Assembly: GCA_902787555.1 (NCBI GenBank)
Contig: CADAGO010000020.1
Coordinates: forward strand, 82,356-146,355
Length of the DNA stretch: 64,000 bases
Direction: 5' to 3'
Source: an uncultured Bacteroidales bacterium
Lineage (GTDB): Bacteria; Bacteroidota; Bacteroidia; Bacteroidales; Bacteroidaceae
In this document: positions 45,976 to 58,984 of the stretch, in pieces
How positions within the stretch are numbered: position 1 is the first letter of the stretch
How the letters are laid out: each line of letters opens with the position of its first letter
Position numbers and translations under genes: made by a program
The notes under the pieces: model-generated
Told to the model about the DNA's origin: nothing
Seen by the model: only the letters and a program-made list of their open reading frames with translations
Databases searched by the model: none

Positions 45976-46001
45976 CTGTTTCTCCCTTCGGGGAGGAACA
46001 G
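45976..46001 (+). promoter_or_regulatory. Stable UUCG-loop hairpin between susC and susD
   Basis: CTGTTTCTCCC and GGGAGGAACAG form an 11-bp stem (one G-U) around TTCG. No T-run follows, so it is not an intrinsic terminator. Likely an RNA-stability or processing element that sets different SusC and SusD levels. Confidence 0.55.
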
Positions 46002-48381: not shown

Positions 48382-48457
48382 TGCATAATTGATAAAGTCA
48401 AATGTATAACTGAAACGAAATATAAGCCTTTCTTGCTCCGAGCGAGAGGGGCTTTTT
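48354..48457 (+). promoter_or_regulatory. Transcription attenuator: antiterminator and terminator of the leu operon
   Basis: Terminator: AAGCCTTTCTTGC (from 48424) pairs with the facing strand ending GGGGCTT (to 48453), then TTTTTG. Competing structure: 48354-48373, beginning GCTCGGAG within the leader-peptide gene, is complementary to 48424-48443 (16 Watson-Crick and 3 G-U pairs of 20). The two folds are mutually exclusive, as in E. coli-type leu/ilv attenuation. Confidence 0.8.
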
Positions 48458-48519: not shown

Positions 48520-50019
48520 ATGGATCGTTTATTTATTTTTGACACAACATTGCGTGATGGCGAGCAAGTACCCGGATGCCAGCTCAACACGGTAGAGAAA
48601 ATTCAAGTTGCCAAGCAACTCGAGATGTTGGGAGTCGATGTCATCGAAGCAGGATTCCCTATATCCAGTCCAGGCGACTACAACTCTGTCATCGAAATCT
48701 CGAAGGCTGTGACATGGCCTACTATCTGTGCACTGACTCGTGCCGTCGAGAAAGATATTGATGTGGCTGTTGAGGCTCTGCAGTATGCGAAGCGTAAGCG
48801 TATTCATACCGGTATCGGTACGAGTGATTCGCACATCAAGTACAAATTCAACAGCAACCGTGAGGAAATCATCGAGCGTGCTGTCGCAGCAGTGAAGTAT
48901 GCACGTCGCTTTGTTGACGATGTAGAGTTCTATGCCGAGGATGCAGGTCGTACTGACAACGAGTATCTGGCTCGTGTGATCGATGCTGTATGTAAGGCTG
49001 GTGCTACCGTTTGTAACATCCCAGACACAACGGGTTTCCGCGTGCCGAACGAATATCATGAGAAGATCAAGTATCTTTATGAGCATGTCGATGCCTTCGC
49101 TGCTGGTACGTCTGTTCTTTCAACTCACTGCCATAACGACCTTGGTATGGCTACCGCCAATACCGTAGCGGGTGTGTTAGCAGGAGCACGTCAGGCAGAG
49201 GTAACGATTAATGGAATCGGTGAGCGTGCTGGCAATACCTCGCTCGAGGAGATTGCTATGATTTTCAAGACTCATCCCGATCTTGGCATCGAGACCAATA
49301 TCAACACGACGAAGATTTATCCTACCAGCCGTATGGTGTCGAGCCTCATGAATATGCCTGTTCAACCCAACAAGGCAATCGTGGGACGTAATGCTTTTGC
49401 TCATTCCAGTGGCATCCATCAGGATGGCGTGTTGAAGAATGCATCGACCTACGAAATCATGGATCCAAAGGATGTAGGTATCGACGAGGCATCAATCGTG
49501 CTGACTGCTCGTTCAGGACGAGCCGCCCTCAAGCATCGTTTGCATATCAACGGTGTGGATGTCGATGAAGAAAAGCTCGACAAGGTATATCAGGCATTCC
49601 TCGAACTGGCAGATAAGAAGAAAGAGGTGACTGACGATGACATCCTCGTTCTCGCAGGTGCTGATCGTACAGAGGCACACAACATCAAACTCGACTACTT
49701 GCAAGTGACTACTGGTAAGGGTGTACGTAGTGTGGCATCCATCGGCCTGCAGATTGCAAACGAGCACTTTGAAGCAGCTGCAACAGGTAACGGTCCTGTC
49801 GACGCTGCTATCAAGGGTCTGAAGCGAATTATCAAGCGTGATATGACCCTCAAGGAATTCACTATCCAAGCAATCTCGAAAGGTTCTGACGACCTCGGTA
49901 AGGTTCACATGCAGGTGGAATACAACAACCACATCTATTATGGATTTGGTGCCAACACCGACATCGTAACAGCTTCTGTTGAAGCATATATTGATTGTAT
50001 CAATAAATTTAAAGATTAG
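48520..50019 (+). CDS. leuA: 2-isopropylmalate synthase
   Basis: 499 residues. Condenses acetyl-CoA with 2-oxoisovalerate, the first committed step of leucine synthesis. HMGL-like TIM barrel: [12 protein letters not shown] at the N-terminus, [14 protein letters not shown] (metal-binding HxH) and the [13 protein letters not shown] motif. The C-terminal ~110 residues form the LeuA regulatory (leucine-feedback) domain. First gene after the attenuator. Its stop codon (50017-50019) is followed after one base by the left repeat of the first DUF559 element. Confidence 0.96.
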
Positions 50020-50020
50020 A

Positions 50021-50522
50021 AGACCCCCTCTGCCCGCTGGGCATCTCCCCCTCTATGGGGAGATTGGGCTTGCTTACTCTATGTTGCGTGATTTCCAGAC
50101 AGCAAGTTCTGACAGGTATTCTTTGTTGAAAGAGTATGCTCGGAAGAACAGAAATAATCCAACGACAGCAGAAGTGTGTTTATGGCAACGGTTGCGTGGA
50201 AAAGTGTTAGGGGAAAAGTTTAAGCGCCAACATGTTATTTATGACTATATTGCAGATTTTGTTTGCTTAGACCGAAAGTTAGTGGTTGAGGTAGATGGGG
50301 CATACCATTTTACGGAGAAGCAGTCAGAAGAAGATATTTATAGAACAAAGAATTTGGAGCAGTTCGGTTTTCGTGTAATACGATTTACCAATGATGAAGT
50401 GATCAGTAAAACAGAAGAAGTAATACAAATAATAAAGGAAACAATGGAAGAAAACAAAAGTGTTAACATCCCGAATGGTTCTCCCCATAGAGGGGGAGAT
50501 GTCCGTAGGACAAAGGGGGTCT
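50021..50522 (+). mobile_element. DUF559 element 1 (complete) in the leuA/leuC junction
   Basis: 502 bp bounded by 43-bp terminal inverted repeats: 50021-50063 (begins AGACCCCCTC) and 50480-50522 (ends AGGGGGTCT), 37 of 43 identical. Each arm contains a small hairpin (TGCCC-GCT-GGGCA on the left, TGTCC-GTA-GGACA on the right) whose differences are compensatory, plus a CTCCCC/GGGGAG hairpin. The only gene inside is a DUF559 endonuclease. The element starts 1 base after the leuA stop and its right end replaces the leuC start codon. No target duplication is evident. Confidence 0.8.
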
Positions 50523-51904
50523 GCCTCTTCGACAAAATATGGGATGCCCATGTAGTGCAGCAGGTGGAAGATGGACCTACTCAGTTGTACATCGACCGTT
50601 TGTATGCACACGAGGTGACAAGCCCTCAGGCATTCGACACATTGAGAGATAAAGGTATCAAGGTGTTCCGCCCTGACCACGTGGTGGCAATGCCCGACCA
50701 CAACACACCAAGTGACCAGCAGGAACGTATTGACGACCCTGTAGGCCGCAAACAAGTAGAGACCCTCAAGTCTAATTGTGAAGAGTATGGTATCAAGCAC
50801 TTCACGATGGGCACTAAGGATAATGGTATCATCCATGTGGTAGGTCCGGAAAAGGCCCTGTCTCTGCCTGGTATGACTATCGTCTGTGGTGACTCTCACA
50901 CCAGTACCCATGGTGCAGTAGGTGCTATCGCAATGGGTATCGGTACCAGCGAAGTGGCTCAGGTATTGGCTTCTCAGTGTATCCTGCAAGCCAAACCAAA
51001 GACCATGCGTATCAACATCGAAGGCGAGTTGCGCCCGAATGTGACTGCCAAGGATGTGGCACTCTATATCATGGCCCAGATGACGACCAGTGGTGCAACA
51101 GGTTATGCCGTTGAGTATGCAGGTAGTACCATCCGCAACATGTCGATGGAAGGCCGTCTCACCCTGAGCAATCTCAGCATCGAGATGGGTAGCCGTGCAG
51201 GAATCATCGCCCCTGATGAAACGACATTTGCTTACCTCAAAGGACGTGAATATGCACCCAAAGGAGCAGAATGGGATAAGGCCGTCGAAGAGTGGCGTAA
51301 GTTGAAGAGTGACCCAGATGCTGTGTTCGACAAGGAAGTAACCTATCGTGCTGAAGATATTGCACCACGCATTACCTACGGAACTAATCCAGGTGCCGGC
51401 ATTGCTGTCGATGAGTGTATTCCAACCCTTGAGCAGATTGCTGAGGCCGATCGTGGTCAGTTCCTCAGTATGTTGGATTACATGCAGTTCAAGCCTGGGC
51501 AGAAGCTCGAAGGTACACCTGTCGATTATGTCTTCCTTGGCGCTTGTACCAATGGACGTATCGAGGACTTCCGTGCCTTTGCTTCTGTCGTGAAAGGCAA
51601 GAAGAAAGCCGATAACGTAGTTGCTTGGCTTGTTCCTGGTTCATGGCTTGTTCGTCAACAGATTATCGATGAGGGTATTGATAAGATTCTTGAGGAAGCA
51701 GGTTTCGAACTCCGTTTGCCGTCATGTTCAGCTTGTCTGGCCATGAATCCCGACAAGGTACCTGCAGGCAAACTCGCTATTTCGACCAGTAACCGTAACT
51801 TTGTGGGACGTCAGGGACCTGGTGCACGCACCATCCTTGCTTCACCACTCACCGTTGCGGCAAGTGCAATCATAGGAAAAATAACCGACCCAAGAAAGAT
51901 TTAA
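50081..51904 (+). CDS. leuC: DUF559 endonuclease fused in frame to LeuC (isopropylmalate isomerase large subunit)
   Basis: 607 residues from the ATG at 50081. Residues 1-121 are a DUF559 (Vsr-like, PD-(D/E)XK type) domain: [22 protein letters not shown] (Asp59) and [10 protein letters not shown] (Glu70, Asp72), then VIRFTNDEV. Residues ~134-148 ([15 protein letters not shown]) are encoded by the element's right repeat. LeuC begins at Leu149 ([13 protein letters not shown]) and is complete, with Fe-S cysteines in FLGACTNGR and [11 protein letters not shown]. No start codon exists at the normal LeuC start; internal Met122, preceded by A-rich AATAAAGGAAACA, could give LeuC with a 27-residue extension. 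A longer reading from TTG 49979 overlaps leuA and is less likely. Confidence 0.85.
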
Positions 51905-51947
51905 AGACCCCCTCTGCCTGTTAGGCATCTCCCCCTCTATGGGAAGA
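51905..51947 (+). repeat. Solo terminal repeat of DUF559 element family 1 (leuC/leuD junction)
   Basis: 39 of 43 bases match the left repeat of element 1, beginning immediately after the leuC stop codon. Its hairpin reads TGCCT-GTT-AGGCA: one C-G pair has become T-A on both sides relative to element 1. No nuclease gene or second repeat is left. The remaining 49 bases to leuD are ordinary A-rich leader. Confidence 0.8.
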
Positions 51948-51996
51948 GAATTACCCAAACAGAGATGTATCAATAAGTTGAAAGATATAGAGTAAA

Positions 51997-52632
51997 ATGG
52001 CAAAAGAAAAATTTAACATCATACAGTCAACCTGTATCCCCATTCAGATTGACAATTGCAATACCGACCTGATTATCCCAGCCAGGTATCTTGCAAGTAC
52101 AACGCGCGACCCAAAGTTCTTCGGAGATGCTTTTATGCACGATCTTCGCTACGATGCCGATAACAAACCAGTTGCCGACTTCGTGATGAATCAGCCTGCA
52201 TTCTCAGAGGCACCTCATGAGGGGGTACATGAAATCATCGTAGGAGGACAGAACTGGGGCTCTGGTTCCAGCCGTGAACATGCCGCATGGGCCATTGCAG
52301 GCTATGGTGTGCGTGTGGTTATCAGCAGCAGCTTTGCGGATATCCATCGCAACAACCTCCTCAACTGCTTCGTGCTGCCTGTCATCGTGTCACCAGCATT
52401 CCAGCAGGAACTCTTCGCCAGCATCGCTGCCGACCCACAGACCAAGGTCAAAGTCGATGTGCCCAACCAGACAGTCACCAACTTGGCAACTGGTCACAGC
52501 GAGCAGTTCGAAATCAACTCTTACAAGAAGTACTGTCTGATGAATGCCTTCGACGACATCGATTTCTTGTTGGACAATAAAGATAAGATAGAGAAATATG
52601 AGGAGACCCACCCCCTGAACCCCTCCCTGTGA
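51997..52632 (+). CDS. leuD: 3-isopropylmalate dehydratase small subunit
   Basis: 211 residues. With LeuC it isomerises 2- to 3-isopropylmalate. The swivel-domain motif GSGSSREHAAWA is intact, and CIPIQIDNCNTDLIIPARYL is typical. The native protein likely ended near KIEKYE; the final THPLNPSL and the stop codon are encoded by the left repeat of element 2, so the C-terminus has been rewritten by the insertion. Confidence 0.94.
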   Translation: MAKEKFNIIQSTCIPIQIDNCNTDLIIPARYLASTTRDPKFFGDAFMHDLRYDADNKPVADFVMNQPAFSEAPHEGVHEIIVGGQNWGSGSSREHAAWAIAGYGVRVVISSSFADIHRNNLLNCFVLPVIVSPAFQQELFASIAADPQTKVKVDVPNQTVTNLATGHSEQFEINSYKKYCLMNAFDDIDFLLDNKDKIEKYEETHPLNPSL

Positions 52633-52914
52633 GTGAGGGGAGTGGTTACCAATCAGCGATAAGCGATATGGGGTTCAAGACAGCGTCAGATCATTCTGAA
52701 CGTCAACAGGAAGAAGATGACGAACGAAGAACCAGAGAATGAAAAGCTAAGGGGTTTGATGTAATACGTTTCACCAATGAAGAGGTTCTATATACAAACA
52801 AGGTGATAGAAGATATTATTCAAAAACTGCAAGAATATGAATAATCAGCAGCAAACAACATCTAACGGAGTATATACTCCCCTCCTTTGCAGGGAGGGGC
52901 AAGGGGGTAGGTCT
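52604..52914 (+). mobile_element. DUF559 element 2 (internally deleted) in the leuD/leuA2 junction
   Basis: 311 bp. Left repeat from 52604 (AGACCCACCCCCTG..., with CCCTCCCTGT) and right repeat 52876-52914 (ACTCCCCTC...CAGGGAGGGG...GGTCT) are inverted copies of one another, about 40 bp with some differences. They differ in sequence from the family 1 repeats. Between them is only the C-terminal part of a DUF559 gene. The left end supplies the leuD stop codon; the right end runs into leuA2. Confidence 0.75.
52668..52844 (+). pseudogene. DUF559 endonuclease remnant
   Basis: In one frame the sequence reads SDHSERQQEEDDERRTRE, a stop codon (52740-52742), then KAKGFDVIRFTNEEVLYTNK and a helical end. 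This matches the C-terminal half of DUF559 (compare [12 protein letters not shown] in element 1). The N-terminal half with the catalytic Asp and Glu-x-Asp is deleted. The last codons overlap the ATG of the next gene. Confidence 0.8.
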
Positions 52915-54426
52915 ATAGAAATCATGGACACTACACTTCGCGATGGTGAACAGACCAACGGAGTGTCGTTTGTGCCGCATGAGAAACTCATCGTAGCGCG
53001 TATGCTACTTCAAGACCTGAATGTAGACAGGATTGAGGTGGCATCAGCACGTGTGTCCGATGGTGAGAAAGAGGCTGTTCGCAGCATCTGTAAGTGGGCC
53101 AACATGGCAGGAAAACTCGATAGGGTGGAAGTGCTGGGATTTGTCGACGGTCATACCTCTATCGACTGGATCAACGATTGTGGCTGCAAGAACATAAACC
53201 TACTCTGTAAAGGTAGTGAGCGCCATTGTGTCTACCAGCTGAAGAAAACCCTCGACGAGCATCTTGCCGATATCCGTCAGTCCATCGACTATGCCCACCA
53301 GATGGGTATTGCCGTCAATATCTACTTAGAGGATTGGAGCAACGGCATGAAAGATTCTCCGCAGTATGTACATGATTTTGTTGACGCGCTGAAGGATTGT
53401 GGCGTATTGCGTTTCATGCTGCCCGACACCTTGGGTGTGCTCAATCCTATGCAGACACAACAGTATGTCCATCAGATGGTTCAGTGGTTCCCTGACTTGC
53501 ATTTTGACTTCCATGCCCACAACGACTACGACCTGGCAACATCGAACGTGATGTATGCCGTGCTCGAAGGTTGTCGAGGCATCCATACCTGCATCAACGG
53601 TTTGGGCGAACGTGCTGGTAATGCACCGCTCAGCAGTGTGCAGGCCATCCTGAAGGACCAGTTGAAGGTACAGACTTCCATCAACGAAGTGAAGCTTGGT
53701 GAGGCAAGCCGTCTCATTGAAAGCTATTCAGGAATTGCCATTCCGTCCAACAAACCTATCATCGGTGAGAACGTCTTCACCCAAGTGGCAGGCGTACATG
53801 CCGATGGTGACAATAAGAACAACCTCTATTGCAACGACCTGCTTCCAGAGCGGTTCGGACGTAAACGTGAATATGCATTGGGTAAGAACAGCGGTAAGGC
53901 CAACATCTTGAAGAACCTCGAGGAACTTGGACTTGAACTCACGCCCGAACAGACACGCCGCGTTACCGATCGTATCATCGAGTTGGGCGACAAGAAGCAG
54001 ATAGTCACTCAGGAAGACCTTCCCTATATCGTCAGCGATGTGCTCAAACACACCACACCCGACGAGAAGGTCAAACTGCTCAGCTATATGGTCAGCACCG
54101 CCTATGGACTCAAACCGATGGCGAGTGTGAAGCTCGAAGTTAATGGTGAGGTCTATGAAGAGTCAGCAATGGGTGACGGTATGTACGATGCTTTCGTGCA
54201 TTGTGTGCGCCACATCTATCGTGACCGTCTCCACCGCACCTTCCCATGGCTTACCAACTACGTGGTCAACATCCCGCCAGGCGGACGTACCGATGCCCTC
54301 GTTCAGACGACCATCTCATGGACATACGAGGACAAAGCTTATCGTACTCGCGGACTTGATGCCGACCAGACCGAAGCAGCCATCAAGGCAACCATTAAAA
54401 TGTTGAATCTCATAAACCTCCCCTAA
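52837..54426 (+). CDS. Second 2-isopropylmalate synthase-family protein (LeuA/CimA-like)
   Basis: 529 residues as read from ATG 52837. The enzyme proper starts at about Ile29 ([19 protein letters not shown]), with DFHAHNDYDLATSN (metal HxH) and NGLGERAGNAPLSS, and a LeuA-type C-terminal domain. Acetyl-CoA condensation with a 2-oxo acid is expected; citramalate synthase is an alternative to isopropylmalate synthase. Residues 1-28 come from the decayed DUF559 3' end and the right repeat (TPLLCREGQGGRS). ATG 52924 would give a protein lacking the IEI strand. The last residues (NLP) and stop lie in element 3. Confidence 0.85.
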   Translation: MNNQQQTTSNGVYTPLLCREGQGGRSIEIMDTTLRDGEQTNGVSFVPHEKLIVARMLLQDLNVDRIEVASARVSDGEKEAVRSICKWANMAGKLDRVEVLGFVDGHTSIDWINDCGCKNINLLCKGSERHCVYQLKKTLDEHLADIRQSIDYAHQMGIAVNIYLEDWSNGMKDSPQYVHDFVDALKDCGVLRFMLPDTLGVLNPMQTQQYVHQMVQWFPDLHFDFHAHNDYDLATSNVMYAVLEGCRGIHTCINGLGERAGNAPLSSVQAILKDQLKVQTSINEVKLGEASRLIESYSGIAIPSNKPIIGENVFTQVAGVHADGDNKNNLYCNDLLPERFGRKREYALGKNSGKANILKNLEELGLELTPEQTRRVTDRIIELGDKKQIVTQEDLPYIVSDVLKHTTPDEKVKLLSYMVSTAYGLKPMASVKLEVNGEVYEESAMGDGMYDAFVHCVRHIYRDRLHRTFPWLTNYVVNIPPGGRTDALVQTTISWTYEDKAYRTRGLDADQTEAAIKATIKMLNLINLP

Positions 54427-54961
54427 CCCCTCCCTCAGTCTTCCCCCTTTGGGGGACTGAGGGGGGACAAGAACGAATTTCTCCCCCTTCGCACTCCCCC
54501 CAAGGGGAGAGAGAGGGGAATTCCTGATGCAATGGGAAAGCAACGGTATCATTACGAGACTTCGACAACAGGTACTTATCATTTGATGAAGGAGTTTGCT
54601 CAGAGGAATCGAAGTAATCCCACTGAAGCAGAGAGTGCTTTATGGAATATGCTAAGGGGGAAGCGGTTGAAGGTTAGATTTCGACGACAACATCCTATTG
54701 GCAATTATATTGCTGATTTTGTATGCTTGAAGGCTCGACTAATCATAGAAGTTGATGGTGAGTATCATTTTAGGGGGGATATGCCTGAGAATGATCAGGA
54801 GAGAACAGACATATTAAATAGCATGGGGTATGTTGTGATGCGGTTTTTAAACGAGGAGATTATCTCAGGCGCAGAAAGAGTAGTATTAACAATTAAAAAT
54901 AAATTAGAAGAAATGAAGGAATTAGAATCTTCTCCCCTTGGGGGAGATAAGAGAGGGGTTT
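54414..54961 (+). mobile_element. DUF559 element 3 (complete) in the leuA2/leuB junction
   Basis: About 548 bp. Left side: two G/C-rich hairpin units, 54414-54468 (CCTCAGTC...CCCCC TTT GGGGG...ACTGAGG) and 54478-54518 (CTCCCC-CCAA-GGGGAG). Right side: 54931-54961, starting with TCTCCCC-TTG-GGGGAGA and ending GAGAGGGGTTT. The inner left unit and the right end are inverted relatives (about 16 of 20 over the hairpin). These repeats differ from those of elements 1 and 2. Contains one DUF559 gene. Left end provides the leuA2 stop; right end stands where the leuB start should be. Confidence 0.72.
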
Positions 54962-56019
54962 CCTTAAAAATTGCAGTCCTTTCTGGTGACGGTATCGGAC
55001 CAGAGATTATGGAACAAGGCGTGAACGTGATGAGCGCCGTGTGTGAGAAATTCGGACATGAGGTCAGCTACAAGGAAGCACTCTGTGGTGCTCACGCCAT
55101 CGATGAGGTAGGCGACCCATTCCCAGAGGAAACATTCCAAACCTGTATGGAGGCTGATGCAGTCCTTTTCGCCTCAGTGGGCGACCCAAAGTTCGACAAC
55201 AATCCCAATGCCAAGGTGCGTCCTGAGCAGGGCTTGCTGGCCATGCGTAAGAAACTCGGCCTCTTTGCCAACATCCGTCCCGTTGAGACCTTCGATTGTC
55301 TCATCCACAAGTCACCATTGAAGGACGAACTCGTACGTGGTGCCGACTTCATTTGCATCCGTGAGCTGACAGGCGGTATGTATTTCGGAGAGAAGAAAGA
55401 AGGTACCGATGTGGCTTACGACACCAACTACTACACCCGCAAGGAAGTAGAGCGTATCCTCCGTGTAGCTTATCAGTATGCCATGCAGCGTCGCAAGCAC
55501 CTCACCGTAGTCGATAAGGCTAACGTCCTTGCATCCAGCCGTCTGTGGCGTGCCGTTGCTCAGGAGATTGCTCCTCAGTATCCTGAGGTAACAACTGACT
55601 ATATGTATGTCGATAATGCTGCTATGCGTATGATTCAAGAGCCAACCTTCTTCGATGTGATGGTTACCGAGAACACCTTTGGTGATATCCTCACCGATGA
55701 AGGTTCATGCATCACAGGTTCTATGGGACTTCTCCCATCAGCCTCTACAGGCGAGCATACTCCAGTGTTCGAACCTATCCACGGTTCATGGCCACAAGCA
55801 AAGGGACTCAATATCGCCAACCCATTGGCACAGATTCTTTCAGTTGCCATGTTGTTCGAGTACTTCGACCTCAAGGCTGAAGGGGCACTTATCCGCGAGG
55901 CAGTCAATGCCAGTCTCGATGCCAATGTGCGCACTCCAGAGATACAGGTGGAAGGAGGTGCCAAATATGGTACACGGGAAGTGGGGCAGTGGATCGTCGA
56001 CTATATCAAAGCCAAGTGA
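54532..56019 (+). CDS. leuB: DUF559 endonuclease fused in frame to LeuB (3-isopropylmalate dehydrogenase)
   Basis: 495 residues. Residues 1-127: DUF559 domain with [23 protein letters not shown] (Asp62), [10 protein letters not shown] (Glu73, Asp75) and [10 protein letters not shown]. Residues ~132-144 ([12 protein letters not shown]) are translated from the right repeat. LeuB starts at Leu145 ([16 protein letters not shown]) and is full length (351 residues), with the [10 protein letters not shown] and TVVDKANVL-type motifs ([13 protein letters not shown]). LeuB oxidatively decarboxylates 3-isopropylmalate with NAD+. No ATG exists at the native start; Met128, preceded by AATAAATTAGAAGAA, is a good internal start giving a 17-residue extension. 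DUF559 here is only moderately similar to that in element 1. Confidence 0.85.
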
Positions 56020-57573: not shown

Positions 57574-57590
57574 CTCAGGCCGAACGGAGC
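57574..57590 (+). repeat. Partial copy of the 40-bp dispersed repeat
   Basis: CTCAGGCCGAACGGAGC matches the 3' part of the 58357 repeat with one mismatch. It lies in the 290-base gap between divergent genes, which otherwise holds only the promoter box at 57726. Confidence 0.55.
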
Positions 57591-58356: not shown

Positions 58357-58396
58357 GAAGCAAGAGCAGCCTTCGTCGTGAGCTCAAGCCGAACGG
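58357..58396 (+). repeat. 40-bp dispersed repeat, copy 1
   Basis: Begins GAAGCAAGAGCAGCC and ends GCCGAACGG; 38 of 40 bases match 58945-58984. It starts 5 bases after the flavin-reductase-like stop codon. The following GCTTGAGC (58407-58414) pairs with GCTCAAGC (58382-58389) to make a hairpin. Confidence 0.8.
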
Positions 58397-58453: not shown

Positions 58454-58969
58454 ATGATGGAGAATCCAATGTTCCGTCAAATGAGACGCAAGCGTCAGCA
58501 GCTTGCAGAGGAAGAATGTGTCGCTATTTTGCAGAAGGCTACGTCAGGTACTTTGGCATTGCTTGGCGACGATGACTATCCGTATGCCGTTCCCATTAGC
58601 TATGTCTATCACGAAGGGAAACTATACTTCCATAGTGCTTTGGAGGGCCATAAGATCGATGCCATCCGTAAGTGTGACAAGGCGTCTTTCTGTGTCATCG
58701 AACAAGATAATGTTCAGCCGGAGAACTATACAACTTTCTTCCGTAGCGTGATAGCTTTCGGCAGAATTCATATCATTGAGGACGCGCAGGAGAAGTTGGA
58801 AATTGCCAGAATGCTGGGCAATCGTTATAATCCAAATCAAGATGAAGCTCTCCAGAAAGAGCTCGAAAGCGGATTATCCCGTATGTTGGCAATCCGTTTT
58901 GATATCGAACATCTGACAGGTAAAGAAGCGATAGAACTGATGAGGAAGCGAGAGCAGCCTTCGTCGTGA
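58454..58969 (+). CDS. Pyridoxamine 5'-phosphate oxidase-family protein, NimA-like
   Basis: 171 residues. FRQMRRKRQQLAEEECVAIL, GTLALLGDDDYPYAVPISYV and YFHSALEGHKIDAIRK follow the pattern of 5-nitroimidazole reductase (Nim) and related FMN-binding proteins. A resistance role cannot be concluded from sequence. The last residues (REQPSS) and stop are encoded by copy 2 of the 40-bp repeat, so the C-terminus has been altered by that repeat. Met2 is an alternative start. Confidence 0.82.
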   Translation: MMENPMFRQMRRKRQQLAEEECVAILQKATSGTLALLGDDDYPYAVPISYVYHEGKLYFHSALEGHKIDAIRKCDKASFCVIEQDNVQPENYTTFFRSVIAFGRIHIIEDAQEKLEIARMLGNRYNPNQDEALQKELESGLSRMLAIRFDIEHLTGKEAIELMRKREQPSS

Positions 58970-58984
58970 GCTCAGGCCGAACGG
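58945..58984 (+). repeat. 40-bp dispersed repeat, copy 2
   Basis: Begins GAAGCGAGAGCAGCC and ends GCCGAACGG; two differences from copy 1. It overlaps and terminates the Nim-like gene. Confidence 0.8.

Follow-up and report, generated by a model that had tools for sequence, protein, structure and literature searches.

The Leucine Operon and Its DUF559 Elements

The window, a stretch of 64,000 nucleotides (nt) from an uncultured Bacteroidales bacterium (assembly GCA_902787555.1, contig CADAGO010000020.1), contains a leucine operon with the genes leuA (48520–50019), leuC, leuD (51997–52632), a second leuA-like gene, here called leuA2, and leuB, which ends at position 56019. Each of the four junctions between these genes carries an element with a gene of the DUF559 family (Pfam PF04480) between inverted repeats, or the remains of such an element. 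This had been claimed in a preliminary description of the window, and all four were found again by inverted repeats, by PF04480 matches and by reading of the open reading frames (ORFs). The types are also as described there, with complete elements at leuA-leuC and leuA2-leuB, an internally deleted one at leuD-leuA2 and a solo repeat at leuC-leuD. The repeats and ORFs of the operon given below are on the + strand.

At leuA-leuC, the left repeat (50021–50063, inverted repeat I1, family A) is 86% complementary to the right repeat (50480–50522, 43 nt, family A), which is translated as 14 residues ahead of LeuC. A single ORF (50081–51904) contains a DUF559 domain (residues 16–122, PF04480, E = 2.4e-31) and LeuC (aconitase domain PF00330, residues 151–599, E = 2e-160). 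At leuA2-leuB, one ORF (54532–56019) likewise comprises DUF559 (residues 20–125, PF04480, E = 1.3e-33) and LeuB (Iso_dh, PF00180, residues 146–486, E = 5.9e-118), the right repeat (about 54928–54963) being read through into LeuB. DUF559 is thus fused in frame, via the right repeat, to two different enzymes. The left repeat of the second element (about 54414–54519) encloses the leuA2 stop codon, and nested in it is a palindromic insert (about 80 nt) which the related genome G004 does not have at this place.

The left repeat at leuD-leuA2 (about 52604–52645, inverted repeat I5, family B) contains the leuD stop codon and is followed by a DUF559 remnant (52668–52844, PF04480, E = 2.4e-7) with an internal deletion and one TGA; the remnant lacks about 200 nt which are still present in its G004 relative, L019, a longer copy that itself has one TGA. 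The stop of the remnant overlaps an ATG at 52837, the start of a leuA2 leader, and the right repeat (about 52876–52914, family B) is open in the leuA2 frame after this leader (MNNQQQTTSNG). The putative N-terminal extension of LeuA2, consisting of the remnant leader and the translated repeat, is uncertain, since the gene might natively start at an in-frame ATG further downstream. At leuC-leuD only a left repeat of family A is present (51905–51947); a stretch of 53 nt around it is 89% like the left repeat of leuA-leuC.

Inspection by eye and comparison of the inverted repeats agreed on three repeat families, one of them (A) at two junctions, with a C-rich/G-rich hairpin core common to all. One insertion duplicated along the operon is thereby ruled out for the window; in G004, closely related family B elements occupy two leu junctions. 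The preliminary description had also stated that about 35 other co-directional junctions in the window were free of such repeats. This is correct for repeats of the DUF559 type, while the number is not, since a codon-scored gene caller gave 54 co-directional junctions. Three hairpin patterns had their sole match outside the leu operon at 45982, between susC and susD; the nearly perfect palindrome of 26 nt found there (about 45976–46001, CTGTTTCTCCCTTCGGGGAGGAACAG) has no C-rich outer arm like that of the DUF559 repeats. Also outside the operon, a direct repeat of 40 nt (58357–58396 and 58945–58984, 95% identical) was observed, with related 17-nt copies near 57574.

Empty, Filled and Decayed Sites in Related Genomes

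In the genome to which the window belongs (G000; 2.69 Mb, with a completeness of about 82%), PF04480 is matched three times, each time in the leu operon. Within the genus, 10 of 17 genomes had such matches; of the 23 listed, at least 10 sit in the leu operon, a count which leaves three weak matches (L012, L022, L023) unassigned to a context. LeuC was found in 14 of the 17 genomes. The leuA-leuC junction is empty in G006, where stop and start are almost adjacent, and is filled with a family A element in G000, a family B element in G004 and family C in G007. Remains are seen in G013 (repeats of family B around a partial element), G012 (a small B remnant) and G014 (a decayed element), and G015 and G003 have a left-end relic ahead of a native-looking start; in G001, G005, G008, G009 and G011, leuC retains its ATG and no leuA end was found upstream.

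Between G000 and G004, which hold different elements at leuA-leuC, the flanking genes are 95% (leuA) and 94% (leuC) identical. The leuA2-leuB element is common to both and is absent from G006, G012, G013 and G007, with a short stretch resembling a left end in G006. The solo repeat at leuC-leuD occurs in G000 and G012; G004, G006 and G013 lack it, and in G007 its place is taken by a repeat of family C. At leuD-leuA2, DUF559 is missing in G007, which has kept two repeats of family C and a leader (MSVNNNSQK), and a right-end relic is all that G006 shows. A repeat upstream of leuA is present in G004 and G012, with TAG on both sides, and is missing in G000; in G004 this hairpin contains the nested palindromic insert which, in G000, lies in the left repeat of leuA2-leuB. 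Several fillings replace host bases, including the start codons of leuC and leuB.

Another hairpin upstream of leuA (about 48424–48457, AAGCCTTTCTTGCTCCGAGCGAGAGGGGCTT) hardly varied among the six genomes compared; it may serve the leu operon as a leader or an attenuator.

Presence and absence between genomes that are 94–95% identical, different repeat families at one site within the genus and a change of junction implied by the DUF559 tree (see below) support the earlier proposal of a mobile, repeat-associated system. They also bear on the possibility that the elements are old domesticated insertions, immobile and vertically inherited, which are kept to separate or regulate operon messages, e.g., through cutting of the repeat stem by RNase III. 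The repeats of the leuA-leuC element do pair in the predicted mRNA (z = −5.9), many sites are junctions of biosynthetic operons, and DUF559 clusters by site across genera; but a junction that is empty or filled with family A, B or C within one genus, differences between G000 and G004 at three of the five leu-operon places compared, and repeats and elements inside genes, with no evident operon role, make domestication improbable in our opinion.

DUF559 Loci in the Family and Beyond

From a sample of 399 genomes of the family, 151 had a PF04480 match. For closer analysis 106 loci were used, which were not a random draw: two elements of the window, 17 from the genus and 87 high-scoring rows from the family; the decayed third element of the window and three weak matches of the genus were left out. 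Gene names at junctions other than leu were given by eye. The element was co-directional with, or fused to, both neighbours in 100 of these loci; the others comprised four loci with one flank missing (L016, L056, L099, L103) and two exceptions (L061, which belongs to a deep side branch of the DUF559 tree, and L106). An element that nearly always points the same way as its surroundings is not what randomly oriented insertion would give.

Inverted arms (local score of at least 30) were found around 78 of the 104 elements with flanks; among the controls, the proportion was 0% for 201 shifted windows and 14% for 400 randomly paired arms. The median arm match was 51 within one element and 19 between elements. 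A long frame was open through the right arm in 70 of these 78 loci and closed in eight. No methionine occurred within 15 residues after the arm in 45 of the 70 open loci. Where open loci were not fused (62), an in-frame ATG was present upstream of the arm in 47, and in 18 this ATG began no more than 12 nt ahead of the point where the DUF559 stop codon ends. The same junction fusions recurred across many genomes, and many of the sites are junctions of biosynthetic operons. In L043 and L044, an extra repeat is translated within the N-terminal region of an apparent acyl-CoA dehydrogenase, besides the DUF559 element upstream.

Further records, apparently from Bacteroidota, yielded 583 loci; among the best 80 of these, arms were present in 57 of the 77 scored, although some may duplicate genomes of the family sample. 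In other phyla, arms frame DUF559 in four of the seven plasmid loci read (of 39 records), namely in Picosynechococcus, Pseudanabaena, Deinococcus and Sinorhizobium, and are lacking in those of Azospirillum, Photobacterium and Methylobacterium. The association with palindromic repeats in other phyla, mentioned in the preliminary description, was thus seen in part of the loci read.

Elements and Repeats within Genes

In 10 of the 106 loci, DUF559 lies within one long ORF. Seven such ORFs were scanned with Pfam, with the location reported for the best stretch only, and in six the domain of the host protein was matched in two stretches: SpoIID (three cases), radical SAM (MiaB-like), UDP-GlcNAc 2-epimerase and a polysaccharide synthesis C-domain; L110 gave one stretch only. 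For wecB, which had a match in 25 of the 44 genomes of genus g21, the loop between EVFG and NMFF contains a full element in three loci, is longer without DUF559 in five and short in 17. The five longer loops read like translated repeats (DNA was read for one, L275). No second match was found in G381, which has a full element in wecB and is only 74% complete. For miaB, 30 loci were obtained from 81 genomes and the loop was recovered in 28, with one full element, three repeat-like loops (L311, L319, L333), one long loop of other make-up (L320) and shorter loops in the remainder. Two in-frame repeats in valS (named by eye) were present in G000 and G004 and in none of the 12 other loci printed.

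From the 76 hairpins of G000, 42 were examined: 24 are in a coding frame (9 internal, 12 N-terminal, 3 C-terminal), and the other 18 fall outside any scored ORF. The suggestion that the system is confined to stop-to-start junctions has to be given up, because both elements and solo repeats occur in frame inside genes; its occurrence at recurrent junctions of certain operons is supported by the junction contexts and by the clustering of DUF559 according to site.

The Nuclease and Its Phylogeny

In a profile search, DUF559 matched I-Bth0305I (PDB 3r3p) with E = 1.8e-8. A predicted model (pLDDT 84.7) was matched by Foldseek to 3hrl and to the catalytic domain of I-Bth0305I (3r3p, E = 1.2e-4, TM scores 0.72/0.77). 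Eight residues were invariant in 40 DUF559 domains (E14, Q33, D42, E53, D55, H59, D68, R71), and in the alignment to 3r3p E53 is retained, with N and W opposite D55 and H59. The ratio of nonsynonymous to synonymous substitution rates (dN/dS) had a median of 0.11 over nine usable pairs; six of these pairs were formed between members of a set of four loci, and the highest value was 0.42. The homology to a homing endonuclease, the invariant residues and a dN/dS near 0.1 make movement driven by the nuclease plausible. Pfam showed only DUF559 and an overlapping MTES_1575 match in the element part of the scanned ORFs, with no extended DNA-binding region; unannotated short regions of the proteins could bind DNA.

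A Vsr-like fold, with a weak Foldseek match to 1vsr (E = 0.024), and the fact that many of the genomes are incomplete drafts could be taken to mean that DUF559 is a nuclease for defence or repair, and that the fusions and repeats are accidents of assembly. This appears very improbable, considering that the same junction fusions occur in many genomes and that Pfam recognised both domains in ORFs which run for hundreds of codons without a stop.

A quick tree of 105 domains (107 alignment columns; 48 of the 100 inner branches unresolved) showed grouping by insertion site, with 26 changes for 18 multi-member site groups, versus a mean of 54.2 upon shuffling; none of 200 shuffles was as low. Some clades extend across genera, such as one of leuA-leuC elements in four genera (SH-aLRT 98) and one of gmd-fcl elements in two (SH-aLRT 100). 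L013, at leuA-leuC of G004, groups with the leuD-leuA2 elements L008 and L019 (SH-aLRT 97), and its position therefore suggests a jump between junctions; the leuA-leuC elements L014 and L092 fall elsewhere in the tree.

Repeats with and without DUF559

A strict hairpin pattern (CTCCCC-loop-GGGGAG) was used for counting, with the reversed pattern as control. The own genome contains 76 strict hairpins versus one for the control, more than would arise by chance, and the four in the window are all in the leu operon. Over the 399 genomes, the numbers of hairpins and of DUF559 genes were correlated (Spearman 0.65), with a median of one hairpin in the 274 genomes without strong DUF559 matches and of 85 in the 11 genomes with five or more; 26 genomes with weak matches only (best E above 1e-10) were scored as lacking DUF559. 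Twelve genomes have DUF559 and fewer than two hairpins, possibly since the strict pattern misses other hairpin forms. The question whether the repeats follow DUF559 has therefore a mixed answer: the correlation speaks for it, and against it are these 12 genomes, the repeats around a partial element in G013 and 29 genomes with at least 10 hairpins and no strong DUF559 match.

Such numbers could indicate that the repeats are the mobile unit, similar to repetitive extragenic palindromes (REPs) or miniature inverted-repeat transposable elements (MITEs), and owe their movement to functions of the host or to some unseen enzyme, with DUF559 as a passenger or a separate gene between two copies. The repeats outnumber DUF559 by 76 to 3 in the own genome, and repeat-only insertions are placed differently in close genomes, e.g., the nested insert of G000 and G004. 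We regard this explanation as unlikely, although less so than domestication, in view of the correlation of the counts, the better match between arms of one element, the low dN/dS of DUF559 and the similar framing in four of seven loci from other phyla. In addition, no Y1 transposase of the REP-associated tyrosine transposase (RAYT) type (Y1_Tnp, PF01797) was found in six hairpin-rich genomes, G000, G003, G006, G012, G014 and G015; G004, G007 and G013 have one. REPs driven by RAYT are thus unsupported, as the own genome has no Y1_Tnp.

Two other candidates were considered and rejected. GIY-YIG nucleases gave one match each in 15 of the 16 genomes searched, whether rich or poor in hairpins, in ORFs of 580–680 amino acids which we take to be UvrC. 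Of 12 hairpin-rich genomes that lack a strong DUF559 match, 10 had genes of the 23S_rRNA_IVP family (PF05635), compared with none of four hairpin-poor ones; these genes were not accepted as the same element, because AT-rich tandem inverted repeats frame them (12 loci read) and not hairpins of the DUF559 type. These genes (L346–L357) lie near gene junctions, with an arm score of at least 30 in 10 of the 12 loci, which low complexity may inflate. L348 is at an etfA-acyl-CoA dehydrogenase junction (named by eye), which is also the site of many DUF559 elements. The 23S_rRNA_IVP units may be a second kind of junction element in the same niche.

A Probable Homing-like Element Read by the Ribosome

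Taken together, the DUF559 unit is probably a selfish, homing-like mobile element with REP-like ends, which persists where the ribosome reads through it. A full element consists of a REP-like GC-rich repeat, the gene for a DUF559 nuclease (a relative of I-Bth0305I of the EDxHD family) and the repeat once more in inverted orientation. Many elements supply a start codon, overlapping or just following the DUF559 stop, so that a downstream gene deprived of its own start can be translated with a short N-terminal tail made by the repeat; others are situated wholly in frame within a gene.

From the observed anatomy, open frames, orientation, clustering by site, presence and absence, and nuclease residues we infer a cycle in which DUF559 would nick or cut an empty site, directly or helped by hairpins, and repair off the copy bearing the element would then install it, as in homing, a new site being hit occasionally. 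The survivors would be those insertions that leave both neighbours readable, at junctions of operons in sense orientation or in frame in variable loops. Later deletion of DUF559 could leave paired or solo repeats that are still read in frame. Solo copies which persist after loss of DUF559 would then account for the hairpin-rich genomes without the gene.

A number of observations weigh against this reading. The selection of the 106 loci favours well-preserved copies, since decayed and weak copies were omitted. Control genes had two co-directional neighbours in 15 of 22 cases in the loci and in 46 of 51 in the window, so that sense orientation is partly expected; co-directional surroundings alone are therefore unremarkable and a weak proof. 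At the etfA-acyl-CoA dehydrogenase junction the methionine is mostly retained behind the arm; start replacement is hence not universal. D55 and H59 of DUF559 face N and W in I-Bth0305I, and the dN/dS estimate is based on the nine pairs described above. Clustering by site is incomplete: leuA-leuC and argG-argC need four changes each, porA-porB shows hardly any clustering (a value as low was reached in 28 of 500 shuffles) and leuD-leuA2 shows none. Where clustering exists, it could be the outcome of old vertical inheritance with losses. The 29 hairpin-rich genomes, two of them in the genus (G006 and G013, both incomplete), mean that repeats may be moved by something else. A co-conversion tract was sought beside the swapped leuA-leuC element of G000 and G004 and none was seen, the nearest 100 nt being 94% and 100% identical. 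Finally, a possible target-site duplication exists at one place only (the TAG upstream of leuA in G004 and G012), and several insertions substitute for host sequence instead of adding to it.

Comparison with Known Systems

A REPtron consists of REPs and a RAYT, a Y1 (HUH) transposase, with the gene between inverted REPs plus many solo REPs. The DUF559 units share this arrangement, a gene between inverted repeats and many solo repeats, but the nuclease is DUF559, and Y1_Tnp was not found in the own genome. Insertion sequences and MITEs may be compared with respect to target sites; here, TAG on both sides was seen for the one insertion of G004 and G012, and replacement of host sequence at other sites. 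In-frame insertion of a homing-type nuclease within conserved enzymes is reminiscent of inteins, but the 10 ORFs scanned gave no Pfam match to a protein-splicing domain.

The nearest known thing are the Rickettsia palindromic elements (RPEs). According to the portions of the sources available to us, RPEs and intragenic REPs are short palindromes in many copies, in frame in unrelated protein genes and sometimes near the termini; RPEs encode a conserved peptide, and GTAG ends of REPs often provide a TAG stop codon (PMC10969869, PMC3733652). The same portions describe no nuclease for RPEs and name no enzyme as spreading them. The DUF559 repeats resemble RPEs as dispersed palindromes in many copies (76 hairpins in G000 versus one in the control) with in-frame insertion in protein genes (valS, wecB, miaB; 24 of 42 hairpins of the own genome). 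They differ in that the full-length form carries the gene of its own enzyme, flanked by inverted copies, and in many cases provides a start codon. By eye, no GTAG/CGTC tag was found at the palindrome ends of the repeats in the window (ends AGACCC, AAACC); the insertion upstream of leuA in G004 and G012 ends in ..GGGGAGTAG.

With the EDxHD family of I-Bth0305I (3r3p) the elements have in common a homologous catalytic domain and clustering by site as in homing, and a DUF559 gene has already been assigned to this family, according to the part of the source at hand (PMC9403480). I-Bth0305I is described, in the part available, as a long multi-domain structure for DNA binding (PMC3943268), whereas the proteins of these elements are short and no intron or intein was recognised; palindromic repeats flank them, and their frames continue into host genes. 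At the level of titles and opening lines of abstracts, with many subscription journals outside coverage, no link of DUF559 to palindromic repeats or in-frame insertions was found in the literature. In-frame palindromes and the EDxHD homing family are thus known separately; the combination of DUF559, repeats and in-frame reading was not found described.

More tentatively, with a chance which we put at somewhat less than even, the DUF559 elements could represent a widespread autonomous class of "coding" mobile elements in at least four phyla. Such elements would home into junctions of operons and loops of proteins with no splicing at all, would have acquired, by evolution, open frames and a replacement start codon that keep host genes translated, and would be the source of the in-frame palindromic repeats of bacterial proteins. 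DUF559 is a concrete candidate nuclease for an in-frame repeat system, for which matched empty, full and repeat-only sites are available in relatives. A selfish gene could in this way reside in operons and conserved enzymes with no need for splicing, and translated mobile DNA may be behind some of the annotated N-terminal tails, internal loops and DUF559 fusion proteins.

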